Part shown: one piece after another, positions 4,610 through 23,301 of the stretch | Position numbering within the stretch: position 1 is the stretch's first letter | How the letters are laid out: each line of letters begins with the position of its first letter | Origin: a virus | IMG/VR virus record: IMGVR_UViG_3300028920_000161 | Location: 1 to 36,660 of that record | Strand: one strand, 5' to 3' | Length of the DNA stretch: 36,660 nucleotides | Program-made: the position numbers and the translations under genes | Notes under the pieces: generated by a model | What the model saw: only the letters and a program-made list of their open reading frames with translations | Told to the model about the DNA's origin: nothing | Databases searched by the model: none

Positions 4610-4832
4610 AAGAATTTTAACTAAATATTTGAACCGGAAACTGGGGGATAATTTAAAACAATTGGAATTGCAATTACAGGTTGCAAAATTAACAATTGCT
4701 TTAAAGGATATTCGGGAAACCTTATTATCCAGGGCCCCAAAAATTGGCGGGGAACCATTCCCCCCGGATGAAGATATTTATTTAATCAACAAAATCAATA
4801 ACCATTTAAAGGAAAAGGAAAAAGCAATATGA
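4602..4832 (+). CDS. Small helical protein upstream of ERF, unknown
   Basis: The gene encodes 76 residues from ATG 4602, which overlaps the HTH gene stop. An upstream ATG at 4557 would overlap the HTH gene by 50 bp. The N-terminal half is a leucine-rich helix (LGDNLKQLELQLQVAKLTIALKDI in outline) that could be a coiled coil. The C-terminus carries the recurring AAGGAAAAAGC leader of the next gene and overlaps it as ATGA. The family is not recognised. Confidence 0.55.
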   Translation: MFERILTKYLNRKLGDNLKQLELQLQVAKLTIALKDIRETLLSRAPKIGGEPFPPDEDIYLINKINNHLKEKEKAI

Positions 4833-5521
4833 ACCTTTATCAAAAATTAGTGAAAATCCGACAATCAACCCCATATATTCAAAAAGACAGTACAAACCAA
4901 TTCCATAGATTCAAATATACCAGTTCATCCGCCGTATTAAGCACATTGCGGAAGTCAATGGATGAACATGGGGTATTACTGATTCCCGAAATTGAGGAAT
5001 TTACAGTTAATGACCATACAACGGCAAAGGGTAAACATGAATATTTTACCCTTTTAAAAATGGTATTTACCTGGGTAAATTCAGAAAATCCGGATGAAAA
5101 AATAAAATGCCCATGGCATGGACAAGGTTTGGATGATGCTGAAAAGGGGTTAGGTAAGGCCCTTACATATGCAGAAAAATTCTTTTTACTGAAATTTTTT
5201 AACATTGCTACGGATGAAACAGACCCGGATGCATTTGGGCGGAAACAGAACCAGGGAAACCGGCAACCCCAAAACAACCGGCCGGCGGCCCCCCAGGCCC
5301 CCCGCAAATCCCCCCAGGAAATTTATAAAACATTAATTGGAAGATGCGATACAGTTAAAAAATGGGCAGATGCCCAGGAATGGATGCAAAAACAACCATG
5401 GTGCAACCAAGATTTTATGCAATTGATTGAAACCGATTTTAATAATTGGCGGAGCATTAACCAGGCCCCGCCGGAAAACCAGGAAACAACAAATAAAGGG
5501 GATTACAATTATGGCAAATGA
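4829..5521 (+). CDS. erf: ERF-family single-strand annealing protein
   Basis: The gene encodes 230 residues. The ERF signature is clear at ~107-130: GQGLDDAEKGLGKALTYAEK, then FFLLKFFNIATDETDPD. The N-terminus (YQKLVKIRQSTPYIQKD...FRFKYTSSSAVLSTLR, in outline) also fits. ERF proteins form rings on single-stranded DNA and anneal complementary strands, acting in phage genome circularisation and recombination. A Pro/Gln/Ala-rich linker (~138-165) leads to a C-terminal helical segment. It overlaps the SSB gene by 11 bp, and the ERF-SSB pairing is typical of phage recombination modules. Confidence 0.93.
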   Translation: MNLYQKLVKIRQSTPYIQKDSTNQFHRFKYTSSSAVLSTLRKSMDEHGVLLIPEIEEFTVNDHTTAKGKHEYFTLLKMVFTWVNSENPDEKIKCPWHGQGLDDAEKGLGKALTYAEKFFLLKFFNIATDETDPDAFGRKQNQGNRQPQNNRPAAPQAPRKSPQEIYKTLIGRCDTVKKWADAQEWMQKQPWCNQDFMQLIETDFNNWRSINQAPPENQETTNKGDYNYGK

Positions 5522-5972
5522 TTTAAACCAATGCCAGTTTATTGGCAGATTAACCAAAAATCCGGAATTATCAACATATGGAAATGATGGGGCCCGGTGT
5601 AATTTTACTATTGCCTGTAATTCATTTCATAATGGGGAAAATAAAGCGGAATTTATCCCTGTTGTTGCATTTGGAAATATTGCCCGGAACATAAATCAAT
5701 TCCTTACCAAGGGTTCCCAATGTTTTTTATCCGGCAAATTCCAAACCAGGTCATGGGATAAGGATGATGGAACAAAGGCGTATAAAACTGAAATTGTTGC
5801 ATTTAATGTTCAATTTCTTTCAGGGGCCCAGGATTCAGCCGGAAACAGGGGCCAGGCCCCGGCGGCGGAAAATTCCGGGCAATATACCGGCCGGCCTGTT
5901 CCGGCCCCCCAGGCCCCCCAACAGGCCGCATATCCGAAAACCCCGGATTATGAGGATGATTTACCATTTTAA
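5511..5972 (+). CDS. ssb: Single-stranded DNA-binding protein
   Basis: The gene encodes 153 residues from ATG 5511. Residues 1-110 form an OB fold with the SSB pattern: NQCQFIGRLTKNPELS, then FTIACN and EFIPVVAFGNIARNI, then G-S-Q-C-F-L-S-G-K-F-Q-T-R-S-W. A Pro/Gln/Ala linker ends in the acidic tip DYEDDLPF, the conserved tail that SSB uses to recruit partner proteins. It lies directly after ERF and overlaps it, so the two are likely made together for replication and recombination. Confidence 0.95.
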   Translation: MANDLNQCQFIGRLTKNPELSTYGNDGARCNFTIACNSFHNGENKAEFIPVVAFGNIARNINQFLTKGSQCFLSGKFQTRSWDKDDGTKAYKTEIVAFNVQFLSGAQDSAGNRGQAPAAENSGQYTGRPVPAPQAPQQAAYPKTPDYEDDLPF

Positions 5973-5998
5973 CTTTTAACCCGGATGCGGCCCCGGTA

Positions 5999-6229
5999 AT
6001 GGCCGCCAATTATATGAATTATAAACATCCAACAATAAAATTTGAATTTCATCAATCCGCATTTGAGCAAGTTCAACCATCATATTGTATAAATGCTGTA
6101 AATTTCAAATATGGCCAGGCCGGGGAAAAAACATTATCAGATTCTGAAAAATTGCGTTTTATTGAAATGATAAAATACAAAATAATGAAATTGGAATATG
6201 AAATTAACCATAAAATAATGGATAAATAA
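5999..6229 (+). CDS. Small protein, unknown
   Basis: The gene encodes 76 residues if ATG 5999 is used; ATG 6014 would give 71. Neither start has a strong ribosome site. The N-terminal half is aromatic and Asn-rich, and the C-terminal half is a charged helix (LSDSEKLRFIEMIKYKIMKL). No domain is recognised. It follows SSB by 26 bp. The gap up to 6348 holds only the short peptide noted at 6281. Confidence 0.45.
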   Translation: MAANYMNYKHPTIKFEFHQSAFEQVQPSYCINAVNFKYGQAGEKTLSDSEKLRFIEMIKYKIMKLEYEINHKIMDK

Positions 6230-6280
6230 TAAATGTTGGTAAATATGGTTCAAAATCATTTAATAGGTTCCGTTAATTAA

Positions 6281-6355
6281 ATGAATCAAACCAGGGAAAT
6301 AACAGCCATATACCCTGTACCAACAGTTCAAAAAAAGGGTAAAAAAAATGAATAA
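6281..6355 (+). CDS. Possible 24-residue basic peptide
   Basis: ATG 6281 opens a 24-codon frame whose product ends in a Lys-rich tail (QKKGKKNE). Its stop overlaps the start of the gene at 6348. The ribosome site is weak, and the only support is the overlap and its filling of an otherwise empty 118-bp gap. It may be a leader that couples translation to 6348, or chance. Confidence 0.22.
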   Translation: MNQTREITAIYPVPTVQKKGKKNE

Positions 6356-6521
6356 TAAACTGGAAAAATATCGAAAAACAGTAAATAAACATTTAAAACA
6401 ACATTTTGGGGAGTCAATTGAGGATTTTTCATCTGAAATTATTAAGGGGCATTTTGAAAACGATTCCCCCACATTAATTTGTGCCAATGACCTGGCATAC
6501 AGGGCGGGAATAAAGAAATAA
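6348..6521 (+). CDS. Small helical protein, unknown
   Basis: The gene encodes 57 residues, preceded by AAAAAAGGG (6331-6339) at good spacing. The sequence is charged at the N-terminus (NNKLEKYRKTVNKHLKQHFG) with a C-terminal part ICANDLAYRAGIKK. No domain is recognised. It ends 24 bp before queD in the same direction, so it belongs to that transcript. Confidence 0.5.
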   Translation: MNNKLEKYRKTVNKHLKQHFGESIEDFSSEIIKGHFENDSPTLICANDLAYRAGIKK

Positions 6522-6545: not shown

Positions 6546-6896
6546 ATGATATTTAGATTAAGTAAAGAATTTGAAATTTATTGCGGCCATTATTTGCCGG
6601 GGCATCCGGATTGCGGAACCCAACATGGGCATAATTACCGGATTAAATTGCATTTTTCAACCGATAAATTACAGGGGGGCATGGTAATTGATTTTGGAAA
6701 AGCCAAAAAGGAAATAAAGGAAAAATATCATCATAAAAACTTAAATGAATTGGATGATGCATCATTGCCTATTCCAACAGCGGAATTTTTAGCATTAGAA
6801 ATATTTAATCATTTTGATAATAAATCCGGGGCCGCATCAATTGATAAGGTTGAAATTTGGGAAACCCCAAAATCATATGTTTCTATTGAAATATGA
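6546..6896 (+). CDS. queD: QueD-like 6-carboxytetrahydropterin synthase
   Basis: The gene encodes 116 residues, the normal length for QueD/PTPS. Zinc histidines are H15 in CGHYLPG and H27/H29 in QHGHNYRI; C23 sits at the catalytic cysteine position; MVIDFG (~46-51), the HHKNLNELD loop and VEIWETP (~102-108) complete the family pattern. QueD converts dihydroneopterin triphosphate to 6-carboxytetrahydropterin, the second step to the 7-deazaguanine preQ0. In phages such genes usually serve 7-deazaguanine modification of phage DNA, which fits the TGT-like gene two positions downstream. No folE, queE or queC is seen, so the host would have to supply those steps. Confidence 0.92.
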   Translation: MIFRLSKEFEIYCGHYLPGHPDCGTQHGHNYRIKLHFSTDKLQGGMVIDFGKAKKEIKEKYHHKNLNELDDASLPIPTAEFLALEIFNHFDNKSGAASIDKVEIWETPKSYVSIEI

Positions 6897-7081
6897 GGGT
6901 AATAAAAATTGATTCCTGTTTGGTTTGTCCATATGTTTCATGGAAAAATGTTTATAGTGAACATCCATTTTCATATTGTAAAAAATTGATTTATAAAAAT
7001 ATTGATGAATATTTACAGGATTCAAAAAAGGGTATTCCGGAATGGTGTATTTTAGATAAGGAAAAAAATGAAAATATATAG
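6893..7081 (+). CDS. Small cysteine-motif protein between queD and TGT-like gene
   Basis: The gene encodes 62 residues and is coupled to queD by an ATGA overlap (6893-6896); its 3' end overlaps the next gene by 14 bp. Cysteines in C-x-x-C-P, Y-C-K and E-W-C suggest a small metal-binding fold. The layout (CxxCP ... C ... I-P-x-W-C-x-L) is common in uncharacterised phage mini-proteins. Its position inside the putative 7-deazaguanine cassette hints at an accessory role, but that is only context. Confidence 0.6.
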   Translation: MRVIKIDSCLVCPYVSWKNVYSEHPFSYCKKLIYKNIDEYLQDSKKGIPEWCILDKEKNENI

Positions 7082-7754
7082 CGGAATGTCATGCGATAAA
7101 TTAAAAATTCAAAAATTGAAAAACCGGGGTATGGGGGTTATGATGGCCCCGGTATTTAAACAGGAATTAAACAATAACAGATTTAATGTTTCATTTTTAA
7201 AAATGGATTTAGATGGGTTGTATTTTGCGGTTGATAATGGGGCATTTGCGGCATGGAATCGGCAAAAAATGTTTAATGAATATGCCTTTTTAAAATTATT
7301 GGATTTAACCATTGATTTGCCGGTTGATTTTATAATTACCCCGGATATAGTGGCGGGGGGGTTGCGTTCATTAGAATTTTCCATGCATTGGGCCCAAACC
7401 CGGTTAGTTGGGCCGGCCCCATTGGCATTATGCGTTCAGGATGAAATGTTGCCAAATCATATTACCGATGAAATGTTGGGCCATTATACCCATATCATGG
7501 TTGGGGGAACCCCCAAATGGAAATGGGAATGGGCCGCAACCTGGGTTGATTTTGCCCATTCCAAAATCGGGAAATTCGGGGAACCTTTAAAATGCCATAT
7601 TGGCCAATGCGGAACCCCCCAACGTTTACGATATGCGGAAAAAATCGGGGCCGATTCAGTTGATTCAACAAATTTTATTAGGGAAAAAAAAGGCCGATTC
7701 CATATTATTGATGAATACAGAAATCCAACCCAAACAGAATTATTTAAAAATTAA
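7068..7754 (+). CDS. TGT-superfamily (DpdA-like) base-exchange enzyme
   Basis: The gene encodes 228 residues. Three segments align with tRNA-guanine transglycosylase active-site motifs. VDNGAF (~55-60) matches the DSGGF motif with its Asp; MVGGT (~144-148) matches the GG base-binding loop; GADSVDSTNFIR (~194-205) matches G-x-D-x-x-D-C with the nucleophilic Asp (D199 here). The CxCxxC zinc site of tRNA enzymes is absent and the protein is much shorter than a tRNA TGT (~370-380), as expected for a DNA-acting DpdA relative. Together with queD it suggests insertion of preQ0 or a derivative into phage DNA. The family assignment is by motif reading only. Confidence 0.65.
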   Translation: MKIYSGMSCDKLKIQKLKNRGMGVMMAPVFKQELNNNRFNVSFLKMDLDGLYFAVDNGAFAAWNRQKMFNEYAFLKLLDLTIDLPVDFIITPDIVAGGLRSLEFSMHWAQTRLVGPAPLALCVQDEMLPNHITDEMLGHYTHIMVGGTPKWKWEWAATWVDFAHSKIGKFGEPLKCHIGQCGTPQRLRYAEKIGADSVDSTNFIREKKGRFHIIDEYRNPTQTELFKN

Positions 7755-7763
7755 GGGGTACAT

Positions 7764-7877
7764 TTGAAATATTTAATCATTGCATTCCTTTTATGCGGAT
7801 GCGGCGGAATAAAGATTGAACCCGGTTCCATGGAATACCGGGAAGTCTTAAGAAATATTGAAAGGTTGGGTGGATAA
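7764..7877 (+). CDS. Tiny lipoprotein (TTG start)
   Basis: The predicted product has 37 residues from TTG 7764, with AAGGGG (7753-7758) at ideal spacing. A short hydrophobic leader (KYLIIAFLLCGC) ends in a lipobox-like L-C-G-C, giving a mature lipopeptide of 25 residues. It may coat the host membrane (spanin-like or superinfection related) but is too short to assign. The next small membrane gene starts 1 bp after its stop. Confidence 0.5.
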   Translation: MKYLIIAFLLCGCGGIKIEPGSMEYREVLRNIERLGG

Positions 7878-7878
7878 A

Positions 7879-12864: not shown

Positions 12865-13124
12865 ATTGGATAAAAAAAATATTAACCAGGTTTAAAAGGC
12901 CGCATTATCCAAATGTTTATAAAACCGATTGGCCCCAAAGTACCATGGTTGGATATATTTGCCAGGAATGTATGCCCAAGGGGGCCGGGGAATTTGAATT
13001 TCCAATATCCCATGGAAAAGAATGTGCAATATGCGGTAAGGAACCGGCGGAAAATCCAAGATATTTTATAATATGGCCCGGCGGGGAAATTTTCCCAGGA
13101 ATTAATGAACCGGCAAAAACTTGA
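12858..13124 (+). CDS. Small zinc-ribbon protein upstream of TerL
   Basis: The gene encodes 88 residues. CQEC (35-38) and C-A-I-C-G (56-60) form a zinc ribbon, and the N-terminus is strongly basic (WIKKILTRFKRPHYP). The last 20 bases overlap the start of the large terminase gene. Its place suggests a role next to packaging, but it does not resemble a known small terminase. Confidence 0.55.
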   Translation: MLNWIKKILTRFKRPHYPNVYKTDWPQSTMVGYICQECMPKGAGEFEFPISHGKECAICGKEPAENPRYFIIWPGGEIFPGINEPAKT

Positions 13125-14574
13125 ATTATTGGCCCTGGCCAGGATGGAGAAAACCAGGCGGGAATGTGAAAATTCATTTTATGCGTTCCTGGTATTTTTT
13201 TGGGATATTGTTATTGCGGAACCAATGGTTTCCAATTGGCATATAAAATTTTTGTGTGATGAATTACAGATTGCATTAAAAAAAGTATTATCCGGCATCC
13301 CGCAACCGGATATAATTGTTAATATCCCGCCGGGTACAACCAAATCAACAATCTGTTCAGTATTTTTGCCGGCCTGGGGTTGGGTGATTGCCCCCCATTT
13401 GCGTTTTATTACAGGTTCATATTCCGGGCCCCTGGCCAATTCCATGGCAGTAAAATCCAGGGATATATTAAAATCGGATAGATTCAACAGGTTATGGCCT
13501 GGGAAAATCAAAATGAAAGAAGATATGGACACAAAAACAGAATATTGGAATACCCATACAGGGGGCCGCCGTACCTGTTCAACAGATGGAACCATTACCG
13601 GTTTCCATGCCCATTGCATTCTGATTGATGACCCATTGAACCCGAAAATGGCCGCATCCGAAATTAAGAAAAAAACAGCCAATAATTGGTTGGATTCTAC
13701 ATTATCAACCCGAAAAATTGATAAATCAACAACCTTAACAGTTTTAATTATGCAAAGGTTGGCGGATGATGATTGTACAGGGCATTTACTGGCAAAAAAA
13801 CAGAAACCTATCAACCATATATGTATTCCAGGGGAAATAAAAACCATGGATAATGTAAGGCCCCGGAAGTTAAAGAAATATTATAAAAAAGGAATAATGG
13901 ATACCCAAAGGATGGGCCCGGAAGTATTGGAAGGGTTGCGGGTTGACCTGGGGGGCAAACAGTATGCCGGCCAAATATTACAACATCCGGCCGCCGCCGA
14001 AGGAACTATATTTAAGCGGGAATGGTGGTCATGGTATGATGAATTGCCGCAATCCCGGTGCATCCGCCGCATTCATTCCTGGGATACCGGATTTGTAAAG
14101 GGGAAAGAGGATGCCGACACAGGGGCCATATTTGCGGCCCAATTTGATAATGGCCTGTACATTACCGGGGTATTCCATGAACAGTTGGAATTTCCCCAAT
14201 TGGATAATCAGATACGGATTGAGGGAAACAGGGACAAACCCCATGCAGTATTGATTGAAAATAAGGCATCCGGAATATCATTAATCCAGGTATTGCAACA
14301 GCAAACCCAGGTTCCAGTTGTCCCCATTCAGCCGGTTGGGGATAAAGTTGCCAGGGCCCATGCATCAACCCCATACCTGGAAGCGGGGAATGTTTATTTG
14401 CCCCGCAATGCCCCCTGGGTTGCGGAATTTTTGGATATAATGGGGGGGTTTCCGGATGTTAAAAAAAAGGATATGCCGGATGCGTTCAGCCAATTAATAA
14501 ATTGGTTGATATTACAACCAATAGGGAAACCAATGGTAAAATCAAAAAAAATAAAAGCAAAATCCAGGTTTTAA
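13105..14574 (+). CDS. terL: Large terminase (ATPase and nuclease of DNA packaging)
   Basis: The gene encodes 489 residues. The ATPase domain has Walker A IPPGTTKST (74-82) and Walker B CILIDDP (171-177). The nuclease domain has IHSWDTG (D327), VLIENKASG (E385) and DMPDAF (D456/D459), the acidic triad of terminase nucleases. The motor pumps DNA into the prohead and cuts the concatemer. The start overlaps the preceding zinc-ribbon gene by 20 bp. The expected small subunit is not next to it; the best candidate is on the other strand at 20800-21273. A terminator-like hairpin overlaps the 3' end. Confidence 0.96.
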   Translation: MNRQKLELLALARMEKTRRECENSFYAFLVFFWDIVIAEPMVSNWHIKFLCDELQIALKKVLSGIPQPDIIVNIPPGTTKSTICSVFLPAWGWVIAPHLRFITGSYSGPLANSMAVKSRDILKSDRFNRLWPGKIKMKEDMDTKTEYWNTHTGGRRTCSTDGTITGFHAHCILIDDPLNPKMAASEIKKKTANNWLDSTLSTRKIDKSTTLTVLIMQRLADDDCTGHLLAKKQKPINHICIPGEIKTMDNVRPRKLKKYYKKGIMDTQRMGPEVLEGLRVDLGGKQYAGQILQHPAAAEGTIFKREWWSWYDELPQSRCIRRIHSWDTGFVKGKEDADTGAIFAAQFDNGLYITGVFHEQLEFPQLDNQIRIEGNRDKPHAVLIENKASGISLIQVLQQQTQVPVVPIQPVGDKVARAHASTPYLEAGNVYLPRNAPWVAEFLDIMGGFPDVKKKDMPDAFSQLINWLILQPIGKPMVKSKKIKAKSRF

Positions 14575-14604
14575 ATTGAATGCAACAAAACCTGAATTTT
14601 TTTT
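14565..14604 (+). terminator. Probable intrinsic terminator after TerL
   Basis: CAGGTTTT (14565-14572) and AAAACCTG (14587-14594) form a perfect 8-bp stem with a 14-base loop, followed by AA and eight T residues (14597-14604). It overlaps the TerL stop codon. The loop is long, so termination may be partial, but it would separate packaging from head genes. Confidence 0.55.
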
Positions 14605-14634
14605 ACAAATATCAACAAAAATGGAACGGAAACC

Positions 14635-14994
14635 ATGGATAGTGAAACATTAAACCGCATAATTGAAAACAGATGCCAAAGAATAAAGGCCGTATTATCA
14701 ATAAAAAATAAAGAATATGCCCCAAACCGGGATGCATTGCATAATTTCAAGCGGGGCGGCAAAATGTTGGATAAAACCCCGGAATCAATTTTAATTGGGT
14801 TTTGGATGAAACATATTATTTCCATATTGGATATTGTTGATTCCCTACCATTAAATGCGGCCCCTGGCCAGGTAAATTTAGAAATGTTGGATGAAAAAAT
14901 CGGGGATGCTGTTAATTATTTAATTTTATTAGAATCATTAATAATTGAAAGAAATGAATTAAAACCAGTTAGGGAAAATGATTATGACAAATGA
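14635..14994 (+). CDS. DUF1599/Nmad1-like protein
   Basis: The gene encodes 119 residues. The central part reads S-I-K-N-K-E-Y-A-x4-D-A-L-H-N-F-K, then FWMKHIISILDIV and EKIGDAVNYLILLESLI. This is the K-N-x-E-Y...N-F / K-H...D...D-x-x-N-Y layout of small all-alpha phage proteins of the DUF1599 (Nmad1, nucleotide modification associated) type. If so, it would relate to nucleotide handling or modification and fit with queD and the TGT-like gene. The assignment is moderate; no metal-dependent pyrophosphatase motif (ExxE...ExxD) is complete. Confidence 0.5.
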   Translation: MDSETLNRIIENRCQRIKAVLSIKNKEYAPNRDALHNFKRGGKMLDKTPESILIGFWMKHIISILDIVDSLPLNAAPGQVNLEMLDEKIGDAVNYLILLESLIIERNELKPVRENDYDK

Positions 14995-15199
14995 ACAAAC
15001 AGTAATTTTATTAGAATCAATTAAATATAATATTGAAACCGCATCCAATGAATTTACCCGCCGCATGAATAAAAGGGGTATTGATTTAATGGGGGATGAT
15101 GAAGTATTATCCGGCCCAATTGCGGGTTTAAATGCAATGATTAATCAATTGAAAAGTAAAACCAAAATGCCGGTAGAAAAAAATAATTTGGAAATGTAA
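14978..15199 (+). CDS. Small helical protein before the portal gene
   Basis: The gene encodes 73 residues from ATG 14978, or 71 from ATG 14984. It overlaps the previous gene by 17 bp. It is mostly helical and charged (VILLESIKYNIETASNEFTRRMNK) with a Gly/Pro bend near GDDEVLSGPIAGL. No family recognised. The following 154 bp (15200-15353) hold no convincing gene. They are AT-rich, almost free of the GG/CC words of the rest of the genome, and probably contain the head-gene promoter. Confidence 0.55.
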   Translation: MIMTNEQTVILLESIKYNIETASNEFTRRMNKRGIDLMGDDEVLSGPIAGLNAMINQLKSKTKMPVEKNNLEM

Positions 15200-15353
15200 A
15201 TGGTGAATGGTGAAAATAGATTAAAATAGACAATTGTGTAATTTTAAATGTAATGATTGAAAAAACGGTAAAAAAAGTATTTTGAAATTGGCTGTAAATT
15301 GAATAAAATATAAACAGGGTAATGGCATTTAATATTTCAAATATGGGGAAACC

Positions 15354-16844
15354 ATGGCAGAAAATAAAGCAGTAATAAAACCCCAAACCAGGGTAATTGC
15401 ATCCCGCCAAACCGCAATTGATACCATGGGGCAAATCGGAACCCTATTGAATCCCGATAGGGTATTGGAAAAATTGGGGATTTCTCAAACCGAAGCATAT
15501 AAGGATTTATTAACAGATACCCATTTGACAACAGTTAGGGAATCCAGGGCCGCCGCCGTAAAGAATATGGATTATGGTATTGAAAGGGGCGGGGCCCCGG
15601 CAAAGGCCGCCAAAATGGTTACCAGGATATTTGAAAACCTAGATATTGATAGATTTATTGATGATGTTTTACTGGCAAATGATTATGGAATGGCCCCAAT
15701 CGAAATTATATGGAAACAAACAGAAAATTGGTATATTCCGGATGCCCTGGTTGGAAAACCGGCCCGGTGGTTCCAATTTGATGAACAGAACAGATTGCGT
15801 TTTATATCGCAATCAAATATGACCGATGGGGTATTGGTTCCAAATTATAAAATATTATTGCCCCGGAACCGGGCAACATATGACAACCCATATGGGGATG
15901 CCCTTTTATCCAAAGTGTATTGGCCAATTACTTGGAAAAGGAACGGTTTGAAATGGTGGAATGTTTTTGTTGAAAAATATGCCATGCCCTGGATTGTTGT
16001 AAAAAATCCCCCTAACATGGATGAAACAGATGCGGATAAATTACTGGATGATTTAAATGAAATGGTACAGGATGCTGTATTAATGATTCCTGGGGATAAT
16101 TCCATGGAATTTAAAGAACCATCCGGCGGCAGAAGTTCGGAAATATATGAAGGCATGGCGAAATATATGAATGCCGAAATATCCAAAGTTTATTTAGGGC
16201 AAACCCTTACAACAGAAATTGGGGATGTTGGTAGTTATTCGGCATCCCAAACCCATCAAGGGGTAAAGGATGAAAGAAGGGATGCTGATAAATTGATGAT
16301 TGAAAGAACGGCAAACCAATTAATAAAATGGATATGGGAAATTAATATTTCATCCGGGGAAACCCCCAAGGCGGATTTACCATATTTTAAATTGTATTTA
16401 CCGCAAAGCATAAATAAAGAACAGGCAGAAAGGGATAAAATATTATCTGACATTGGGGTTAAATTTCAACCCGAATACATGAAAAAAACATATAACCTGG
16501 ATGATAATGATTTTGAAATGGGGGAACCAACCGGGCCAGGGGAAGCCCCGGATGCCGGCGGCCCCATACCTGGGTTGTCAATGTTTGCAAAAACATACCC
16601 TGACCAGGAAAGCATTGATAATGCTGTAAAAAATATTCCCGCATCAGTTTTGGAAAAACAGGCAAATGGTATATTAAAACCAATAATTGATTTGGTTAAC
16701 AGTTCTAATTCATATGATGATGTACTAGATAATTTACTGGATACATTTCCGGAAATGGATTTTGATTCCCTTGAATCCATGGTAAAACAGGCAATTTTTG
16801 TATCAAATGTTTATGGCCGGATTGCGGCCAATGATGAAAAATAA
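15354..16844 (+). CDS. Portal protein, DUF935 / Mu gp29 family
   Basis: The gene encodes 496 residues. The middle shows the DUF935 signature: NPYGDALLSKVYWPITWKR, then GLKWWNVFVEKYAMPW, followed by the VGSYSASQTH (~300) and ERTANQLIKW region. The protein forms the dodecameric ring at the capsid vertex for DNA entry and tail joining. ATG 15354 follows GGGG at 15345. A 17-codon frame from 15322 overlaps the start and may be a leader. It is followed without a gap by the MuF gene, as in Mu-like phages. Confidence 0.94.
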   Translation: MAENKAVIKPQTRVIASRQTAIDTMGQIGTLLNPDRVLEKLGISQTEAYKDLLTDTHLTTVRESRAAAVKNMDYGIERGGAPAKAAKMVTRIFENLDIDRFIDDVLLANDYGMAPIEIIWKQTENWYIPDALVGKPARWFQFDEQNRLRFISQSNMTDGVLVPNYKILLPRNRATYDNPYGDALLSKVYWPITWKRNGLKWWNVFVEKYAMPWIVVKNPPNMDETDADKLLDDLNEMVQDAVLMIPGDNSMEFKEPSGGRSSEIYEGMAKYMNAEISKVYLGQTLTTEIGDVGSYSASQTHQGVKDERRDADKLMIERTANQLIKWIWEINISSGETPKADLPYFKLYLPQSINKEQAERDKILSDIGVKFQPEYMKKTYNLDDNDFEMGEPTGPGEAPDAGGPIPGLSMFAKTYPDQESIDNAVKNIPASVLEKQANGILKPIIDLVNSSNSYDDVLDNLLDTFPEMDFDSLESMVKQAIFVSNVYGRIAANDEK

Positions 16845-18365
16845 ATGCCATTAAAGGATGTAAAGGTTGGAACCGCATTAAGAATGCCCCCAAAAAGGGC
16901 CATTAAATACTTTGAATCCAAGGGCAATAAAATAACATGGGATTGGCGGGAGCAATTAAAAATGAACAACCATTTGGCATTTACAGTTGCCAAGGTTGGA
17001 AAGATGGATATTTTACAGGAAATGCGGGGGGAAATTAAAAAGGCCCTGGATAATGGAATACCCTTTAAACAGTTTAAAAAAGAATTACAACCCCGATTGG
17101 CCCGGATGGGATGGGCCCCAAGGGAAAAAAGGGCCCCGGATGGAAAATTAATCCAGTTGGGGGCCCCGGCCAGGTTGTCCATTATTTATGAAACAAATAT
17201 GCAATCATCCTATAATGCCGGCAGATACCAGGCATTTATGGATAATAAAAAAAACAGGCCATATTTATTGTATGTTGCAGTTGTTGACGATTCAACCAGG
17301 CCGGCCCATTTAGATTTAAATGGGCAATTACATCCAGTAGATTCTAAATTTTGGGATTCATATACCCCGCCAAATGGTTACAGATGCAGATGCCGCATAA
17401 GGGCATTATCGGAAAAACAGGCGGAACGGAAAGGGGGAATAACAAAGGTGGCCCCCAAGTATAAAAAGGGCCCGAAAAAAGGAAATGTTGTAAGGCCGGA
17501 TAAAGGTTTTTCAGGGAACCCAGGAACTAAAAATTGGAATCCAAATCCGGCAAAGTATGATAAAGATATATGGAACCTGGGTAAAACATTGCCGCCGCCG
17601 CCAATGCCAAAAAAGAAACCCCCATTTAAAGCGGAAAAACCAAAAACCATTGGAAAAACAAAGGGTTTCCAAAAACAAAATACAATTGCCGATTGTGAAA
17701 AATGGGGGGTTGCCAATGGGGTTGCAAAGGAAATTGATTATACCGGGGTTGATTTAAAATATGCAAATGATATAAATGAACAATTGTATTATTTAAGGAA
17801 TAAATATCCGGGCACATTTTTAGAAAAAATTGGGGTAAATGAAACATCCGCTTATGCATCAGTTGGAAATAAAAGGATTATGAATTTAAATCCCGCATGG
17901 TTCGGAAATGTACAAAAATTCCAAAATAAAAGAGCCGGGGAGATGGCGGCATTGGCTAAAGTTAGAATTGACCCCAATCGCTCCGCCGCAAAAAATGTTG
18001 TAACCCATGAATTTGGGCATACATTGGTTTATGGGTTGGAAGTAAAAGGTTCATATAAATATGGAATAAAGATAAATCCCAAATATGCGGAAATAAAAAA
18101 AATCCGCCGGGATTACCGGGCAGAATTAAAAAGGGTTAGGAAAAAGTTTCCCGCCGGCCCCGGCCCCTTTGCTCCATCAAAACAATTTAAAGAAATATAC
18201 ATATCAGATTATGCAAATTATAAATATATCCAATCCGGGGATGATTATTCGGAATTTATAGCGGAATCATTTTCACAGTATGAAAGGGGAGAAATTAAAA
18301 ACAAATTTACAGATAGAATGGGGAAATTTTTTGAACAACAATTTGGGGTAAAAAATGGCAAATGA
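16845..18365 (+). CDS. MuF head protein fused to a zinc metalloprotease-like domain
   Basis: The gene encodes 506 residues. The MuF domain is at ~55-190: RLSIIYETNMQSSYNAGRYQAF in outline, then VVDDSTRPAHLDLNGQ and PPNGYRCRCRIRALS. MuF is a minor head protein near the portal. After a Lys/Pro linker (~200-275) a second domain carries THEFGHTL (H388, E389, H392) and SEFIAESF (E470/E474), which read as an HExxH zinc protease with a downstream Glu ligand. MuF proteins with C-terminal toxin-like domains are known; this one would be packaged in the head and could be injected with DNA. Catalysis and role are inferred. Confidence 0.88.
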   Translation: MPLKDVKVGTALRMPPKRAIKYFESKGNKITWDWREQLKMNNHLAFTVAKVGKMDILQEMRGEIKKALDNGIPFKQFKKELQPRLARMGWAPREKRAPDGKLIQLGAPARLSIIYETNMQSSYNAGRYQAFMDNKKNRPYLLYVAVVDDSTRPAHLDLNGQLHPVDSKFWDSYTPPNGYRCRCRIRALSEKQAERKGGITKVAPKYKKGPKKGNVVRPDKGFSGNPGTKNWNPNPAKYDKDIWNLGKTLPPPPMPKKKPPFKAEKPKTIGKTKGFQKQNTIADCEKWGVANGVAKEIDYTGVDLKYANDINEQLYYLRNKYPGTFLEKIGVNETSAYASVGNKRIMNLNPAWFGNVQKFQNKRAGEMAALAKVRIDPNRSAAKNVVTHEFGHTLVYGLEVKGSYKYGIKINPKYAEIKKIRRDYRAELKRVRKKFPAGPGPFAPSKQFKEIYISDYANYKYIQSGDDYSEFIAESFSQYERGEIKNKFTDRMGKFFEQQFGVKNGK

Positions 18366-18573
18366 ATTAAAAACAGTAGATAAAATATTTCAATGTGGGG
18401 ATTGCATCCATTACAAGGGGGCCCAAGTTCATCCAAATGGATATTCCCAATTACATATTTGTGTGGCATTCCCCAAGGGCATCCCCGACAAAATAATATT
18501 TAGTGATTTTATCCATACAAAACCATATCCAAATGATAAGGGAATAAGATTTGAGCCCAAAGGCCCCCAATAA
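18355..18573 (+). CDS. Small Cys-motif protein, phage family of unknown function
   Basis: The gene encodes 72 residues and overlaps the MuF gene by 11 bp. F-Q-C-G-D-C-I-H-Y-K-G, then H-I-C-V-A-F-P-K-G-I-P and I-H-T-K-P-Y-x-N-D-K-G-I-R-F-E is a layout I know from small phage proteins encoded beside portal and MuF genes (CxxC ... C-x-AFP-x-GIP ... H-x-x-P...D-x-G-I-x-F). The cysteines probably bind zinc. No activity is established. It is followed directly by the glycosyltransferase gene. Confidence 0.7.
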   Translation: MANELKTVDKIFQCGDCIHYKGAQVHPNGYSQLHICVAFPKGIPDKIIFSDFIHTKPYPNDKGIRFEPKGPQ

Positions 18574-19766
18574 TGCAGAAAAATCTAAAAAAATGCATGG
18601 GTAAAATCCCCGGCCCATTAAAATCAAATCATCCGCCGGAAACCATTGCGGTATGCATGATTGTAAAAAATGAAGAAAGCAAAATTGCGGATGCCATTAA
18701 TTCAGTAATACCATTTGCGGATGAAATAATTATTAATGATACAGGTTCAACAGATGGAACCATTGAAATAATAAAAGAATATCAAAAAATAATTAATAAT
18801 CCGCCAATTATTTTAATTCAAAATCCATGGGAAAAATCATTTAGCAAGGCCAGGAACCAGGGATTGGCGAAAAGCAGATGCCAATGGAATTTTTGGTTGG
18901 ATGCGGATGATAAGATTGAACCCGGTGAAGCAAATAAAATAAATACTTTAAAGCGGGCCCCCCTGGATAGGGTTTTTGGATTTACAATACAAAATACCAA
19001 TCAATACGGAATGCCCAAGGCGGAATTTGTCCAGGTTCGGATGTTTCCAAACCATCCATTATTAGGATTCCGCCGCCGAATTCATGAACAGATATTGCCG
19101 GCAATTGCAGAATTGGGGCTACATTTAGTTTATACGGATGGAAAAATTATCCATACCGGTTACGAAAATGAACAATATAAAAAGAAAAAACAACATAGGA
19201 ACCTGGAATTAATGGGGATGGAACCGGATGCCAATACCGATTATATGTTATTAATGGCCCAAGGGGACAGTAACTATATACTGGGGGAATGGGAAAAGGG
19301 AATTGATTTTTTCAAAAAGGCATATCAAATAAAAAACCTGGATAAAATCAACCTGGATGCATACCTGGTAATCCCATCCCGAATTGGGGCCGGGTTCCAT
19401 GGATTGGGACAATTTAAAAAAGCGGCGGAATGGTATGAAATTGGATACCAAAGATGGCCCCAAAATATTGAAAACTGTTTTACCCTGGGTAAATGTTACG
19501 AAAAATTAAATGAACCGGAAAAGGCCCTGGAATATTTCAATAAAGTTTTTGAATTGCCAAAAATGATTACTAGTCAAAATTTAAGATATGACCAATGCCG
19601 GTTATATTCATTTCATAATGCAACCCGGTTATTAATGAACATGGGCCGCAATCGGGAATGTTTGGAAATACTGGAATTGATGCGGAATGCATATCCCGAT
19701 TGGGAATTGGAATCAGATGATATAATACCAACCAACCAGGGGACAATTGTCCATGATACTATTTAA
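18573..19766 (+). CDS. Family 2 glycosyltransferase with TPR-like C-terminus
   Basis: The gene encodes 397 residues. The GT-A domain is clear: TIAVCMIVKNEESKI (24-38), EIIINDTGSTDGT (51-63), KARNQGL and WLDADDKIEP (109-118), with the DxD-type D110/D112 that binds the metal and sugar nucleotide. From ~225 helical pairs follow (YILGEWEKGIDFFKKA, LGQFKKAAEWYEIGYQ, LGKCYEKLNEPEKALEYFNKVF), which are TPR repeats typical of protein-directed glycosyltransferases. It sits among head genes between MuF and the gpG-like gene, so the capsid, the tail or the host surface may be its target. That is inference. Confidence 0.9.
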   Translation: MQKNLKKCMGKIPGPLKSNHPPETIAVCMIVKNEESKIADAINSVIPFADEIIINDTGSTDGTIEIIKEYQKIINNPPIILIQNPWEKSFSKARNQGLAKSRCQWNFWLDADDKIEPGEANKINTLKRAPLDRVFGFTIQNTNQYGMPKAEFVQVRMFPNHPLLGFRRRIHEQILPAIAELGLHLVYTDGKIIHTGYENEQYKKKKQHRNLELMGMEPDANTDYMLLMAQGDSNYILGEWEKGIDFFKKAYQIKNLDKINLDAYLVIPSRIGAGFHGLGQFKKAAEWYEIGYQRWPQNIENCFTLGKCYEKLNEPEKALEYFNKVFELPKMITSQNLRYDQCRLYSFHNATRLLMNMGRNRECLEILELMRNAYPDWELESDDIIPTNQGTIVHDTI

Positions 19767-20181
19767 AATAAATAGTAAAGGATTTACAGATACCATGGCC
19801 CGGTTGCGAGAAAGGGCAATTAAGAAAAGGCCATTGATGCGGGAAATTGGCGGCATAATGCATGATGAAGTTGAAGAAAATTTTGATGCCCAGGGCCGGC
19901 CGGCCTGGAAGGATTTAAAAGATACAACAAAGGCAAAAAGGGCCGCAATTGGAAAATGGCCAGGTAAAATATTACAGGTTTCCGGCCAGTTGGTAAATTC
20001 AATCCAAGTTACAACAACAGAAAATTCCGCAATTGTTGGAACCAATAAAATATATGGCCCAACCCATGAATTTGGCGATTCCCGCCGTAAAATACCGGCC
20101 AGGCCCTTTTTAACTTTATCAAATGGAAGTATTAAGGAAATTGAAGATTCAGTTACCAGGTATTTATTAGGAAACCAATGA
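19753..20181 (+). CDS. Virion morphogenesis protein, Mu gpG family
   Basis: The gene encodes 142 residues from ATG 19753, with AGGGGA nine bases upstream; an in-frame TTG at 19747 is too close to that site. The family pattern is visible: RPLMREIGGIMHDEVEENFD, G-R-P-A-W-K-D-L, LQVSGQLVNSI, IVGTNKIYGPTHEFG and I-P-A-R-P-F-L. These proteins act in head completion or tail joining in Mu-like phages. It overlaps the glycosyltransferase gene by 14 bp and the next gene as ATGA. Confidence 0.9.
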   Translation: MILFKINSKGFTDTMARLRERAIKKRPLMREIGGIMHDEVEENFDAQGRPAWKDLKDTTKAKRAAIGKWPGKILQVSGQLVNSIQVTTTENSAIVGTNKIYGPTHEFGDSRRKIPARPFLTLSNGSIKEIEDSVTRYLLGNQ

Positions 20182-20483
20182 TGCAACCAATAGATTTTGA
20201 AATTGATGATTTACCGGAACAGTTGCAACATATTGCAGATGTAATTGGGTTGCATTTAACAAAAAAAATGATGATGGAATTTAGCGGGGCAATGATAAAA
20301 TTTCCAGTACATTGGCCGCCGGGGGTAATAAAAAGGTTTATATCATTAAATTATAATGGGAAAAATGCCAATGAATTGGCGGCCCGGTTGGGAATGTCCA
20401 GGCAAACCATATTTAATTACTTAAATGAAAAAATCAGTTGCCCATCCGTTCAAAATGTAACCATCCAAAAACCTGGTAATTAA
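20178..20483 (+). CDS. Mor-family transcription activator (Mu Mor/C-like)
   Basis: The gene encodes 101 residues. The N-terminal half (ADVIGLHLTKKMMMEFSGAMIKFP in outline) is the dimerisation part of Mor-family proteins, and NGKNANELAARLGMSRQTIFNYL (60-82) is the C-terminal HTH. Mu Mor and C bind as dimers to dyad sites and activate middle or late promoters. It follows the gpG-like gene in an ATGA overlap. A dyad at 21362-21382, before the capsid operon, is a possible target. The last 63 bases overlap the antisense gene at 20421-20615. Confidence 0.8.
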   Translation: MMQPIDFEIDDLPEQLQHIADVIGLHLTKKMMMEFSGAMIKFPVHWPPGVIKRFISLNYNGKNANELAARLGMSRQTIFNYLNEKISCPSVQNVTIQKPGN

Positions 20484-20615
20484 TTTTTTTTCCAATAGGG
20501 TATAAATTGCCTGGGGATTTACTGTTTCCCTGGCATCAACCCACATTTGCCGGGATATATGCATTATTTCCCGCAATTCGGATGAAGTTAATTTTGATTT
20601 AGTTGCCATTATCAT
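20421..20615 (-). CDS. Small protein at the end of the leftward operon
   Basis: The gene encodes 64 residues: an initial KSKLTSSELREIMHISRQMWVDA helix, then YTLLEKKLITRFLDGYIL. No family is recognised. Its start overlaps the lipoprotein stop as ATGA (20612-20615), so it belongs to the three-gene leftward unit. The 3' end overlaps the Mor-like gene on the plus strand by 63 bp, so the two transcripts are complementary there. Confidence 0.55.
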   Translation of the reverse strand: MIMATKSKLTSSELREIMHISRQMWVDARETVNPQAIYTLLEKKLITRFLDGYILNGWATDFFI

Positions 20616-20803
20616 GGTATCAAAGCAACCCCAACCCCGGCGGATGATTCATAAACCAGGAATGTATGCCCTGAATGGTAAATTGTTTTTACAGTATAAT
20701 TACCGGCGGGGCCGGCGGATGCATCCGAAATGCAACCGGTTATTGTAAGGCCCCAATTTAAAATTCCAACAATTGCCATTACCCAAATTAATTTTTTCAT
20801 CAT
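20612..20803 (-). CDS. Small lipoprotein
   Basis: The gene encodes 63 residues. The signal has a basic start (MMKK), a hydrophobic core (LIWVMAIVGILNWGLTI) and the lipobox I-T-G-C, so the mature protein begins CISDASAGPAG. The rest (YTVKTIYHSGHTFLVYESSAGVGVALIP, outlined) is one small beta unit with a G-H-x-F-L-V-Y element seen in short secreted proteins of unknown role. It is coupled by ATGA on both sides. It could act at the cell envelope, for example in exclusion of other phages. No direct evidence. Confidence 0.65.
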   Translation of the reverse strand: MMKKLIWVMAIVGILNWGLTITGCISDASAGPAGNYTVKTIYHSGHTFLVYESSAGVGVALIP

Positions 20804-21273
20804 TTCCCCAGGGTTGAAGTTGATGCCAGTTTTTCAATGAATTTTTCCAGTTGTTCATCATTCATTTTTTCAAACAGATTATTGCCAATATCCAATTCCT
20901 TTTTATCAACAAATTTTCCCATTAATTGCATGAATAATTTTGCCGCCTTAACAGAACCATGGGCGGCCTGGATGGAAACAGATGCCATTATATTATCAAA
21001 CATCAGTTCATATTTTTCCCGCCGGGTTTCTAAGGATGTTTTTTTAAGCATTTTCAAATGGTTTTTAATTGTTGTTACAGAAACATTACATTTATCCGCC
21101 AATTCAATGTTGGTTGGGGGGGTTCCATGTTTTTGAATGTGGTCAAAAAATGCGGTACAAATAACAGTATGGTTGTATTCTTTATCCCGCCGGCCCCGGC
21201 CCTTTATCATTGGTATGGATGTTAAAGGTTCAGTAATTTCCAAATCATCTGTATTTAAATTTTCATTATCCAT
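20800..21273 (-). CDS. Likely small terminase subunit, encoded on the opposite strand
   Basis: The gene encodes 157 residues. Residues ~51-75 (TNIELADKCNVSVTTIKNHL) form an HTH. Residues ~95-122 (MASVSIQAAHGSVKAAKLFMQLMG, outlined) match the helix with A-x-x-G-x-V-K-A-A-K-L-x-x-x-x-x-G that marks phBC6A51-type small terminases. The C-terminal helix (EKMNDEQLEKFIEKLA) could contact TerL. It lies 6 kb from terL and is read the other way, which is unusual. The alternative is an HTH regulator. AAAGG lies about 10 bp before its start codon (on the minus strand). Confidence 0.6.
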   Translation of the reverse strand: MDNENLNTDDLEITEPLTSIPMIKGRGRRDKEYNHTVICTAFFDHIQKHGTPPTNIELADKCNVSVTTIKNHLKMLKKTSLETRREKYELMFDNIMASVSIQAAHGSVKAAKLFMQLMGKFVDKKELDIGNNLFEKMNDEQLEKFIEKLASTSTLGK

Positions 21274-21361
21274 AAAATTATGCCTTTATTTGTCTTTCCT
21301 GGTTATACCTTTATTATAAATTAATTAATAATTTACATCCAGTAAAATATTGGGTTGAATT

Positions 21362-21382
21362 TGTACCGGAAACCTGGGTACA
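21362..21382. promoter_or_regulatory. Perfect dyad in the divergent control region
   Basis: TGTACC (21362-21367) and GGTACA (21377-21382) are exact reverse complements separated by nine bases. The 156-bp region 21274-21429 separates the leftward TerS-like operon from the rightward capsid operon, so it must contain both promoters. GTAC is uncommon in this genome, and a 21-bp dyad is the size of a dimer operator. The Mor-like protein, an HTH protein at 4409 or 8518, or the TerS-like protein could bind it. Confidence 0.45.
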
Positions 21383-21429
21383 TTGGAAGTATCATATTGC
21401 TTTTTACTCAAAATGGGGGCCCGGACAAA

Positions 21430-21582
21430 ATGAAATATTTTAAACCAAAATCGGTTTCATGGTGGGCGGGCGTTTCCATTTTGGTAAAGGCCATTGCCCA
21501 ATCCATAATTGAAAAATCCATTGATGTTGAAGGAATATCCCAAGGGTTGGGAATTATTGGCATCCGGGGGGCATTCAAGTAA
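21430..21582 (+). CDS. Small hydrophobic protein before the prohead protease
   Basis: The gene encodes 50 residues from ATG 21430, with GGGGG at 21415-21419. A TTG start at 21355 would run through the dyad and lacks a ribosome site. MKYFKPKSVSWWAGV is followed by a helix (LVKAIAQSIIEK) and a Gly/Ile-rich end (GISQGLGIIGIRGAFK). I know similar 50-60 residue proteins from Mu-like head operons, with no role known. It is directly followed by the protease gene. Confidence 0.55.
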   Translation: MKYFKPKSVSWWAGVSILVKAIAQSIIEKSIDVEGISQGLGIIGIRGAFK

Positions 21583-22161
21583 ATGAAGAAAGAAGTTTTC
21601 AAATCCGGAACCTGGACAGATTCAAGCGGAAGAACCCGCACATGGACAAATTCCGATATTGATAAAATGGTTTCTTCTTTCAATCCCGACAATCGGGAAA
21701 TCCCAATGGTTGTAGGGCATCCAAAAACAGATTCACCCGCATTTGGTTGGGTTGCCAGGGTATGGCGGGAAGGTAATGGATTATGGGCGGAATTTAAGGA
21801 TGTTGTTAAAGAAATGCAATCCGCAATTAAAAAAAAGATGTTTAAAAATACATCTGTTTCCATCAATCCGGATGGAACATTGCGGCATATCGGTTTTTTA
21901 GGGGGGGCCCAACCGGCCGTTCCCGGCCTGGGAAAAATACAATTTGAGGACAACCCCGAAATTGTAACAATAGAATATTCCGATTTGCCGGATGATGATG
22001 ATTATACAGTAATTGAAGGCATGGATTATTTCAGTTTTATGGCCAATTATGCGGAGGGCATGGTTGTTCAGTCATTAATTTTTGAAAAATCTAAATTCCC
22101 AACAGCGGAAGCGGTAAGGGGATGGATTGCAAAAAACCCGCAATTTAAGGTAATAGAATAA
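21583..22161 (+). CDS. Prohead protease, Mu gpI-like
   Basis: The gene encodes 192 residues. IPMVVGHPKTDSPAFGWV (residues ~40-57) is the hallmark of Mu gpI-type phage proteases (V-G-H-P...P-A-x-G-W-V), followed by a beta region (GLWAEFKDV, FKNTSVSINPDG). The C-terminal 40 residues (VVQSLIFEKSKFPTAEAVRGWI in outline) resemble the XkdF-type 'F.K..F..EEA..W' element. The enzyme would cleave scaffold and capsid proteins during head maturation. The stop overlaps the next start (TAATG). Confidence 0.86.
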   Translation: MKKEVFKSGTWTDSSGRTRTWTNSDIDKMVSSFNPDNREIPMVVGHPKTDSPAFGWVARVWREGNGLWAEFKDVVKEMQSAIKKKMFKNTSVSINPDGTLRHIGFLGGAQPAVPGLGKIQFEDNPEIVTIEYSDLPDDDDYTVIEGMDYFSFMANYAEGMVVQSLIFEKSKFPTAEAVRGWIAKNPQFKVIE

Positions 22162-22847
22162 TGCCAGGTATTGAAGAAAAACAAAATACATTTAGGGTTC
22201 GACAAATTAACCCGGATGCATTTGATGCTGATTCATTCCGGATAATTAAAATTACCGATGGGGTAAATGCAGTTATAGGAAAAACCAAACAAAACAAAGG
22301 GGACAACATGAATTGGGAAGAAAAAGCCAAAGAATTGGAAATTAAACTGAATGATGCCAATGCCAAAATAACGGAATTGGAATCAAAGGTTACTGAAACC
22401 GAAGAAAAGGCCGCCAAAGCAGAAGAAAAATTTTCAGCAGAAGAACAGGCCCATATTGAAACAAAGGCCAGTATTGAAAAGGCAAAGATTGAGGCACAGG
22501 CCGCCAAAGAAAATGAATTTGTTGATGGGTTGATTAAGGCCCGCAAATTGAAACCCGCTGATAAAGAATTAACCCTTGTAACCCTGGAAAAATTGCGGGA
22601 TGCCAATGAAATCGAATTTACAGATGCAGAGGGCAACAAACAGAAAAAAGCGGCACAAACCCAGTATATGGAAAACCTGGATGCCGTTGAACCATTTGTT
22701 TCTGATTCAGAAGATTTTACCGATGGAACAGAAGCGAATAAGGATGCAAAATTAAGCAAACTGGCAAAGGCCCGGATGGAAGAAAAGAATATTTCTTTAT
22801 CCCATGCAACCCAGGAAATTATTGCCGAAAATCCATCATTGGCATAA
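22161..22847 (+). CDS. XkdF-like segment fused to the head scaffold
   Basis: The gene encodes 228 residues. Residues ~10-42 (TFRVRQINPDAF, SFRIIKITDGVNAVIGK) match the XkdF-type segment that normally accompanies the 'F.K..F....A..W' element now at the end of the upstream protease. Residues 50-200 are a long charged coiled coil (EEKAKELEIKLNDANAKITE, then ETEEKAAKAEEKF) typical of scaffold proteins that guide capsid assembly and are removed by the protease. An internal start at 22308 probably makes most of the scaffold. Confidence 0.8.
   Translation: MPGIEEKQNTFRVRQINPDAFDADSFRIIKITDGVNAVIGKTKQNKGDNMNWEEKAKELEIKLNDANAKITELESKVTETEEKAAKAEEKFSAEEQAHIETKASIEKAKIEAQAAKENEFVDGLIKARKLKPADKELTLVTLEKLRDANEIEFTDAEGNKQKKAAQTQYMENLDAVEPFVSDSEDFTDGTEANKDAKLSKLAKARMEEKNISLSHATQEIIAENPSLA
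22308..22847 (+). CDS. Nested scaffold protein from an internal start
   Basis: The ATG at 22308 is codon 50 of the 22161 frame. AAAGGGG (22296-22302) precedes it with a five-base gap, a stronger ribosome site than the one for 22161. The product would be 179 residues of coiled coil (MNWEEKAKELEI...), i.e. scaffold alone. Mu gpZ and lambda Nu3 arise in the same way as in-frame internal products of the protease gene; here the nesting lies in the second frame. Inferred from sequence only. Confidence 0.7.
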   Translation: MNWEEKAKELEIKLNDANAKITELESKVTETEEKAAKAEEKFSAEEQAHIETKASIEKAKIEAQAAKENEFVDGLIKARKLKPADKELTLVTLEKLRDANEIEFTDAEGNKQKKAAQTQYMENLDAVEPFVSDSEDFTDGTEANKDAKLSKLAKARMEEKNISLSHATQEIIAENPSLA

Positions 22848-22891
22848 ACAGAAAATAAAGGAATTTTAAAACCAAAAAAAAGGGGAAAAAA

Positions 22892-23254
22892 ATGGAATCA
22901 CTTGGTAAAGTAATCAGCATACCGGCGGGGGCCGATTTGTCAAGTTCAACCGAAAAGGTTGTTCAGTTAAATTCAAGCGGCAACGTAATTGATATGGCCG
23001 CAATCACAAACATTCCAATTGGGATACTGAAAAATGCCCCGGTTACCGGTGAACCCGCAGAAATCGCAATTTCCGGTGTTTCCCGCATTTGGTTGGGTGC
23101 AACCCTGACCCCTGGGGCCCTGGTTGGTTCATCCGCCGCCGGCAAGGCAGTTGCAGATGCATCCACAAATTATAATGTTGGGGTTCTGCTCAAAGGTGGG
23201 GCAGATGGGGAAATTGGTGAAGTTATACTTGGCAGTAAAACGGCAACCGCATAA
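22892..23254 (+). CDS. Head decoration protein, DUF2190-like
   Basis: The gene encodes 120 residues of beta-rich Gly/Ala/Val sequence: VISIPAGADLSSSTEKVVQLN, IPIGILKNAPVTGEPAEIAISGVSRIW and NVGVLLKGGADGEIGEVILG, all outlined. This is the DUF2190 layout of small capsid decoration or stabilising proteins, encoded just before the major capsid protein in many phages. AAAAGGGG lies just upstream of the start. Confidence 0.78.
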   Translation: MESLGKVISIPAGADLSSSTEKVVQLNSSGNVIDMAAITNIPIGILKNAPVTGEPAEIAISGVSRIWLGATLTPGALVGSSAAGKAVADASTNYNVGVLLKGGADGEIGEVILGSKTATA

Positions 23255-23301
23255 TTGAGTTTTAACAAAAAAGAACAGGAACATTAAAAAAGGGGATTAA
23301 T

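Follow-up and report, generated by a model that had tools for sequence, protein, structure and literature searches.

A compact DpdA/TGT-like transglycosylase gene clustered with queD in a virus record: a candidate host-reliant 7-deazaguanine DNA modification cassette

Gene content of the queD locus

The window, that is, the whole stretch of DNA analysed, is an IMG/VR virus record of 36,660 bases. As described in the initial annotation, three open reading frames lie together on the + strand, each overlapping the next: a 116-aa QueD-type protein of the 6-carboxytetrahydropterin synthase (PTPS) fold (6546-6896), a 62-aa protein with the cysteine motif CxxCPY...C...IPxWC (6893-7081), and a 228-aa protein that we assign as a compact DpdA/TGT-like guanine transglycosylase (7068-7754). 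An ERF recombinase region (4829-5521) lies on the upstream side of this cluster, and a replication region, which includes genes for a primosomal protein and a helicase loader, lies on the other, followed further downstream by terminase, portal, minor head protein, capsid and tail genes. The 36.7-kb record, which may be a fragment, yielded no queC, folE or radical-SAM (queE) gene, in keeping with the earlier report that these three genes are missing.

Several other features of the window were recorded. The window combines a Mu-like portal and minor head protein (13105-24297) with the ERF and helicase loader genes; the likeness of both proteins to those of Mu-type phages is distant, the Mu-type relatives of the portal infect several hosts, and no transposase match was obtained among the window ORFs scanned. 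A family 2 glycosyltransferase with TPR repeats (18573-19766) is located within the head-gene module, a 697-aa ORF (76-2169) has no Pfam or PHROG match, and a possible very small lipoprotein-like ORF (KYLIIAFLLCGCGG...) lies at 7765-7878, directly behind the transglycosylase gene.

By sequence, the ORF at 6546-6896 is QueD-type, matching PF01242 (8.7e-25, 87.5 bits, above the curated cut-off of 22.4) and phrog_2389, a QueD-like family (1.4e-18). The initial annotation had called QueD clear from its zinc and catalytic residues. When the protein is aligned with QueD of E. coli and of phage 9g, the zinc His residues, the cysteine motif CxxxHGH and the terminal Glu are all in place, but the catalytic pair has His where Asp is usual, and the score against TIGR03367, the QueD-specific NCBIfam equivalog, is 65.6 bits, below its cut-off of 89.25. 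The Asp-His pair is present in E. coli, 9g and phiST QueD and in the relatives aligned with them, and His-His was seen in the window alone among the QueD relatives with a readable Asp-His segment; the window QueD may still be active. A scan of viral contigs with this single protein returned one locus, with a match of only 15 residues.

The small Cys-motif protein, which overlaps both queD and the transglycosylase gene, had been proposed as a new accessory coupled to queD, a proposal that the gene neighbourhoods do not sustain. As a query on its own it gave no match among viral contigs, and its predicted fold is of low confidence (pLDDT 60). A motif scan recovered 34 similar small CxxCP[Y/F]...IPxWC proteins in unrelated phage contigs, and C9, C12, P13, I48, P49, W51 and C52 were invariant among the 20 that were aligned. 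No que gene and no compact-family transglycosylase gene was seen near any of these 34, and at a closely related locus (L007) intact queD and transglycosylase genes overlap directly with the Cys gene absent. We therefore rejected this protein as a cassette accessory, since the motif is common in phages without que genes and the pair occurs without it. It probably represents a kind of small protein common among phages, not peculiar to the cassette and present in the operon by coincidence; a role there is not supported.

A probable compact transglycosylase family with an invariant predicted active site

The protein encoded at 7068-7754 matches phrog_15826, annotated as 'unknown function' (1.3e-18); no family was named for it in Pfam, NCBIfam or PADLOC, and neither phmmer nor a profile search against PDB sequences found a TGT. 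Used alone against viral contigs it gave no match, and relatives were recovered with an alignment-based query, which identified 396 in IMG/VR, 80 of which were retrieved. Among annotated phages, tblastn found relatives in Erythrobacter phages (R6L and ZS04), a Synechococcus phage (Ssp-JY42) and mycobacteriophages of cluster P; in none of these does a que gene flank the compact gene, and the host would have to provide the base. The Pfam TGT model (PF01702) reached one of 45 members, with an E of 0.01, and not the window protein, and phrog_887 (queuine tRNA-ribosyltransferase) matched eight of the 45, with E values down to 5.7e-6.

Across 86 sequences, D56, N57, P92, D93, Q124, D125, G146, G147, K152, H177 and D199 are invariant. 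The motifs DNGAF, VGGT and GADSVDS, which the initial annotation had aligned to the TGT active site, are present in the 228-aa ORF, and the invariance of their key residues in the 86 relatives indicates that they did not arise by chance. The predicted active-site residues are D56, D93, Q124, G146-G147, H177 and D199. By motif order, we take the TGT counterparts of D56, D93, Q124, G146-G147 and D199 to be D102, D156, Q203, G229-G230 and D280 (Zymomonas numbering). The protein extends just 29 residues past D199, none of them Cys, and the tRNA-TGT zinc site is consequently absent, a DpdA-like property noted earlier for this protein. In a single-sequence comparison, H177 falls opposite His196 in the DpdA of phage 9g, a residue to which the literature draws attention for DpdA (PMC6884629).

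Structure prediction points to the same superfamily. The AF2 model of the window protein is of high confidence (pLDDT 90.1, pTM 0.88), and the best 50 Foldseek rows against the PDB are all TGTs (top E 3.1e-6, probability 1.00), which, with D56, D93 and D199 invariant, agrees with the structural similarity and Asp conservation that the DpdA-type assignment had been expected to show. In a viral library, Foldseek matches included phage queuine tRNA-ribosyltransferase/DpdA proteins, phiST gp042 and a 464-aa nt-1 protein that is probably nt-1 DpdA2. In VIA-align, TGT reached a Z of about 14 (about 209 residues), level with pyruvate kinase and further TIM barrels. The function is therefore not settled by the fold alone, and we base the assignment on the combination of Foldseek, motifs and context. 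That the protein is a TIM-barrel enzyme of some other function merely adjoining queD, as the similarity of many TIM barrels by VIA-align and the absence of a Pfam family for the window protein could suggest, seems to us highly improbable, given that the best 50 Foldseek rows are TGTs only and that the family is repeatedly flanked by que genes in many different orders, beyond what chance or shared descent alone would give.

Relation to known transglycosylases

Sequence clustering places the compact family nearest to DpdA1 yet outside each of the subfamilies compared. When the compact family was placed in a BLAST network together with reference sequences and 80 DpdA1 proteins, it formed its own component at 1e-5 and joined DpdA1 alone at 1e-3, and nt-1 DpdA2, phiST gp042/CP220_0056 and E. 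coli Tgt were unlinked to it even at 1e-3. On this clustering, we rejected the idea that the family belongs to DpdA1, to DpdA2 or to the phiST/CP220 group. A profile-profile comparison, the check proposed at the outset, aligned the compact family with DpdA1 at a moderate level (probability 75, E 2.5e-5).

DpdA1, comprising the phage 9g, CAjan, Rosebush-type, phiSM and Dp-1 proteins, shares with the compact family a TGT-type barrel, the invariant His and linkage to preQ0 genes. The order of motifs is also common to the two, DSGAF/LD.I/GG/KxHGFG/YSxDSSSW in DpdA1 corresponding to DNGAF/PDIV/GG/xHxGR/DSxD in the compact family, and the single-sequence alignment to 9g DpdA pairs DNGAF with DSGAF, GG with GG, the His with His196 and DSVDST with SCDSSSW. 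In contrast, compact members are mostly about 200-250 aa long, whereas DpdA1 proteins are 240-430 aa, and the compact gene usually lies beside one or two que genes, whereas all four pathway genes accompany DpdA1 in 68 of 80 loci (same local models; 67 loci plus L287, which also carries a compact gene).

The remaining groups are more distant. DpdA2 of Vibrio phage nt-1 (464 aa) belongs to the same superfamily, and an nt-1 protein of equal length was a structural match, but DpdA2 has no sequence link to the compact family; DpdA2 is without the conserved His (PMC6884629), which the compact family keeps. Cellulophaga phiST gp042 and Campylobacter phage CP220_0056, of about 260 aa, have motifs that are colinear by eye, and phiST gp042 is matched structurally, but the profile score is weak and the two are unlinked in the network at 1e-3. 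We take this group to be of the DpdA3 type. Cui et al. (NAR, 2023) reportedly defined further DpdA subfamilies, and the compact family may overlap with some of these (DpdA3/DpdA4), of which the phiST/CP220 group was the one compared. E. coli Tgt, a 375-aa enzyme with a zinc subdomain, has the fold and catalytic Asp pattern in common with the compact family, which, unlike Tgt, has no room for such a subdomain. Finally, some members are already named in GenBank: several Fishburnevirus (cluster P) mycobacteriophage proteins carry the label 'DpdA-like tRNA-guanine transglycosylase' and belong to the same family, PHROG 15826, although the name is an annotation and these copies are without a que gene in the flank. 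M. smegmatis, on which cluster P phages can be grown, lacks the preQ0 pathway (PMC6884629).

Linkage to que genes and proposed role

Comparison of the family's neighbourhoods revealed a recurrent association with the preQ0 pathway. At least one of queC, queD, queE and folE lies in the flank of 60 of the 86 loci, and of 28 of the 48 non-redundant loci left after removal of near-duplicates. With the same models, 68 unrelated phage loci, retrieved for an unrelated pattern, contained no queD, queE or folE and one weak queC. The que genes mostly abut or overlap the transglycosylase gene, most gaps being zero, and their order varies: queD-TGT (the window and L007), TGT-queD, queC-TGT, queD-queC-TGT, TGT-queD-queC, TGT-queE-queD, TGT-queE-queC and TGT-queD-queE-folE. 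Among the virus records searched (reference phages 9g and CP220 excluded), Pfam models confirmed QueD in 11 and QueC in 15. The queD-transglycosylase pairing recurs in many environmental phages. One locus, L287, carries queE, queC, queD and folE, followed by a DpdA1 gene (4995-5918) and, directly behind it, a 198-aa compact member (5921-6517), which might serve as an additional transglycosylase directed to a target context of its own, or as a partner subunit.

DNA methyltransferase genes were found nearby in 10 of the 48 non-redundant loci, the family being named from the NPPY-like motif DPPYG by reading rather than by profile search. These neighbours bear on whether the substrate is DNA or tRNA. 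A compact enzyme acting as an RNA (tRNA) guanine transglycosylase, with queD feeding the pathway so that the phage raises queuosine-type tRNA modification for translation, would be in keeping with the superfamily and fold shared with TGT and with the proposal that que-bearing phages without a recognised dpdA boost host Q (PMC6884629). We nonetheless regard a tRNA substrate as improbable: the zinc site is absent and there is almost no C-terminal region past the catalytic Asp, the DpdA-type His is present, phage DpdA1 rather than TGT is nearest in the sequence network, DNA methyltransferase neighbours recur, and Pfam TGT is nearly silent across the family.

We consider it quite probable that the protein encoded at 7068-7754 is instead a compact DpdA-type transglycosylase that puts 7-deazaguanine into phage DNA, with queD boosting a pathway that the host completes. 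The predicted fold, the invariant active-site residues and the recurrent que-gene linkage favour this reading, which was also the one first proposed for the queD-transglycosylase cassette; the moderate DpdA1 profile score, the VIA-align tie, the lack of the catalytic Asp in the window QueD and the members with no que gene in the retrieved stretch (20 of the 48 non-redundant ones and nearly all bacterial copies) count against it. The initial interpretation as a whole was accordingly retained for the DpdA-type enzyme and the cassette and altered in two respects, the Cys protein no longer being an accessory and QueD being less clear than stated. The enzyme would replace guanine in phage DNA with a 7-deazaguanine base, most probably preQ0 or a product that the host derives from it, with D199 as the putative Asp nucleophile, D56 as the acid/base, and D93, Q124 and G146-G147 expected to form the base pocket. 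QueD would act as a pathway booster, raising 6-carboxytetrahydropterin, and because queD stands alone in the window, the host would be expected to supply FolE, QueE and QueC for synthesis of the base. Such supply has precedent in phage 7-11, which has dpdA without preQ0 genes and carries a little dADG, and in Orion, which has no modified base in a host without the pathway (PMC6884629). The expected gain would be resistance to host restriction; DpdA, the preQ0 pathway and their protective role are established (PMC6884629).

The cassette could also be partly decayed, with the transglycosylase using a host-made base and the His-His QueD being inactive or altered, a variant that is compatible with DNA modification by the compact enzyme. 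In line with decay, the His-His pair is confined to the window among readable relatives, the queD beside the transglycosylase gene at locus L008 (2577-2696) is a 39-aa fragment, either decayed or broken by assembly, and the flank of many family members is devoid of que genes. We consider decay of the window cassette rather unlikely, as the zinc ligands, Cys and Glu are kept and the QueD ORF is unbroken and overlaps the next gene. Of the 34 copies from bacterial genomes (Burkholderiaceae and others), 33 are without a que gene in the retrieved stretch, and these copies thus do not help in naming the base.

Beyond this locus, we lean towards viewing PHROG 15826 as a compact subfamily of DNA-guanine transglycosylases that has gone unrecognised, and as the missing partner of many single phage queD or queC genes, forming a minimal, host-reliant module of one transglycosylase plus one booster. 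Environmental studies list queuosine-pathway genes among viral auxiliary metabolic genes, and a 2019 survey described 48 phages with pathway genes and no recognised transglycosylase and set aside QueC and FolE singletons as hard to interpret (PMC6884629). Pairing with a compact transglycosylase may explain why single queuosine-pathway genes are frequent in phages, and que genes so joined may serve DNA modification instead of tRNA. The compact family would then define a near-minimal DNA-guanine transglycosylase. The apparent novelty lies in the compact subfamily taken as a whole, in its separation from the subfamilies compared (DpdA1, DpdA2 and phiST/CP220) and in the systematic way in which it is paired with single pathway genes.

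Among annotated phages, Erythrobacter phage R6L (KY006853.1; 7463-8506 of locus L002), whose gp10 is a family member, has an annotated phosphoadenosine phosphosulfate reductase (gp7) and a DNA modification methylase (gp1) nearby.
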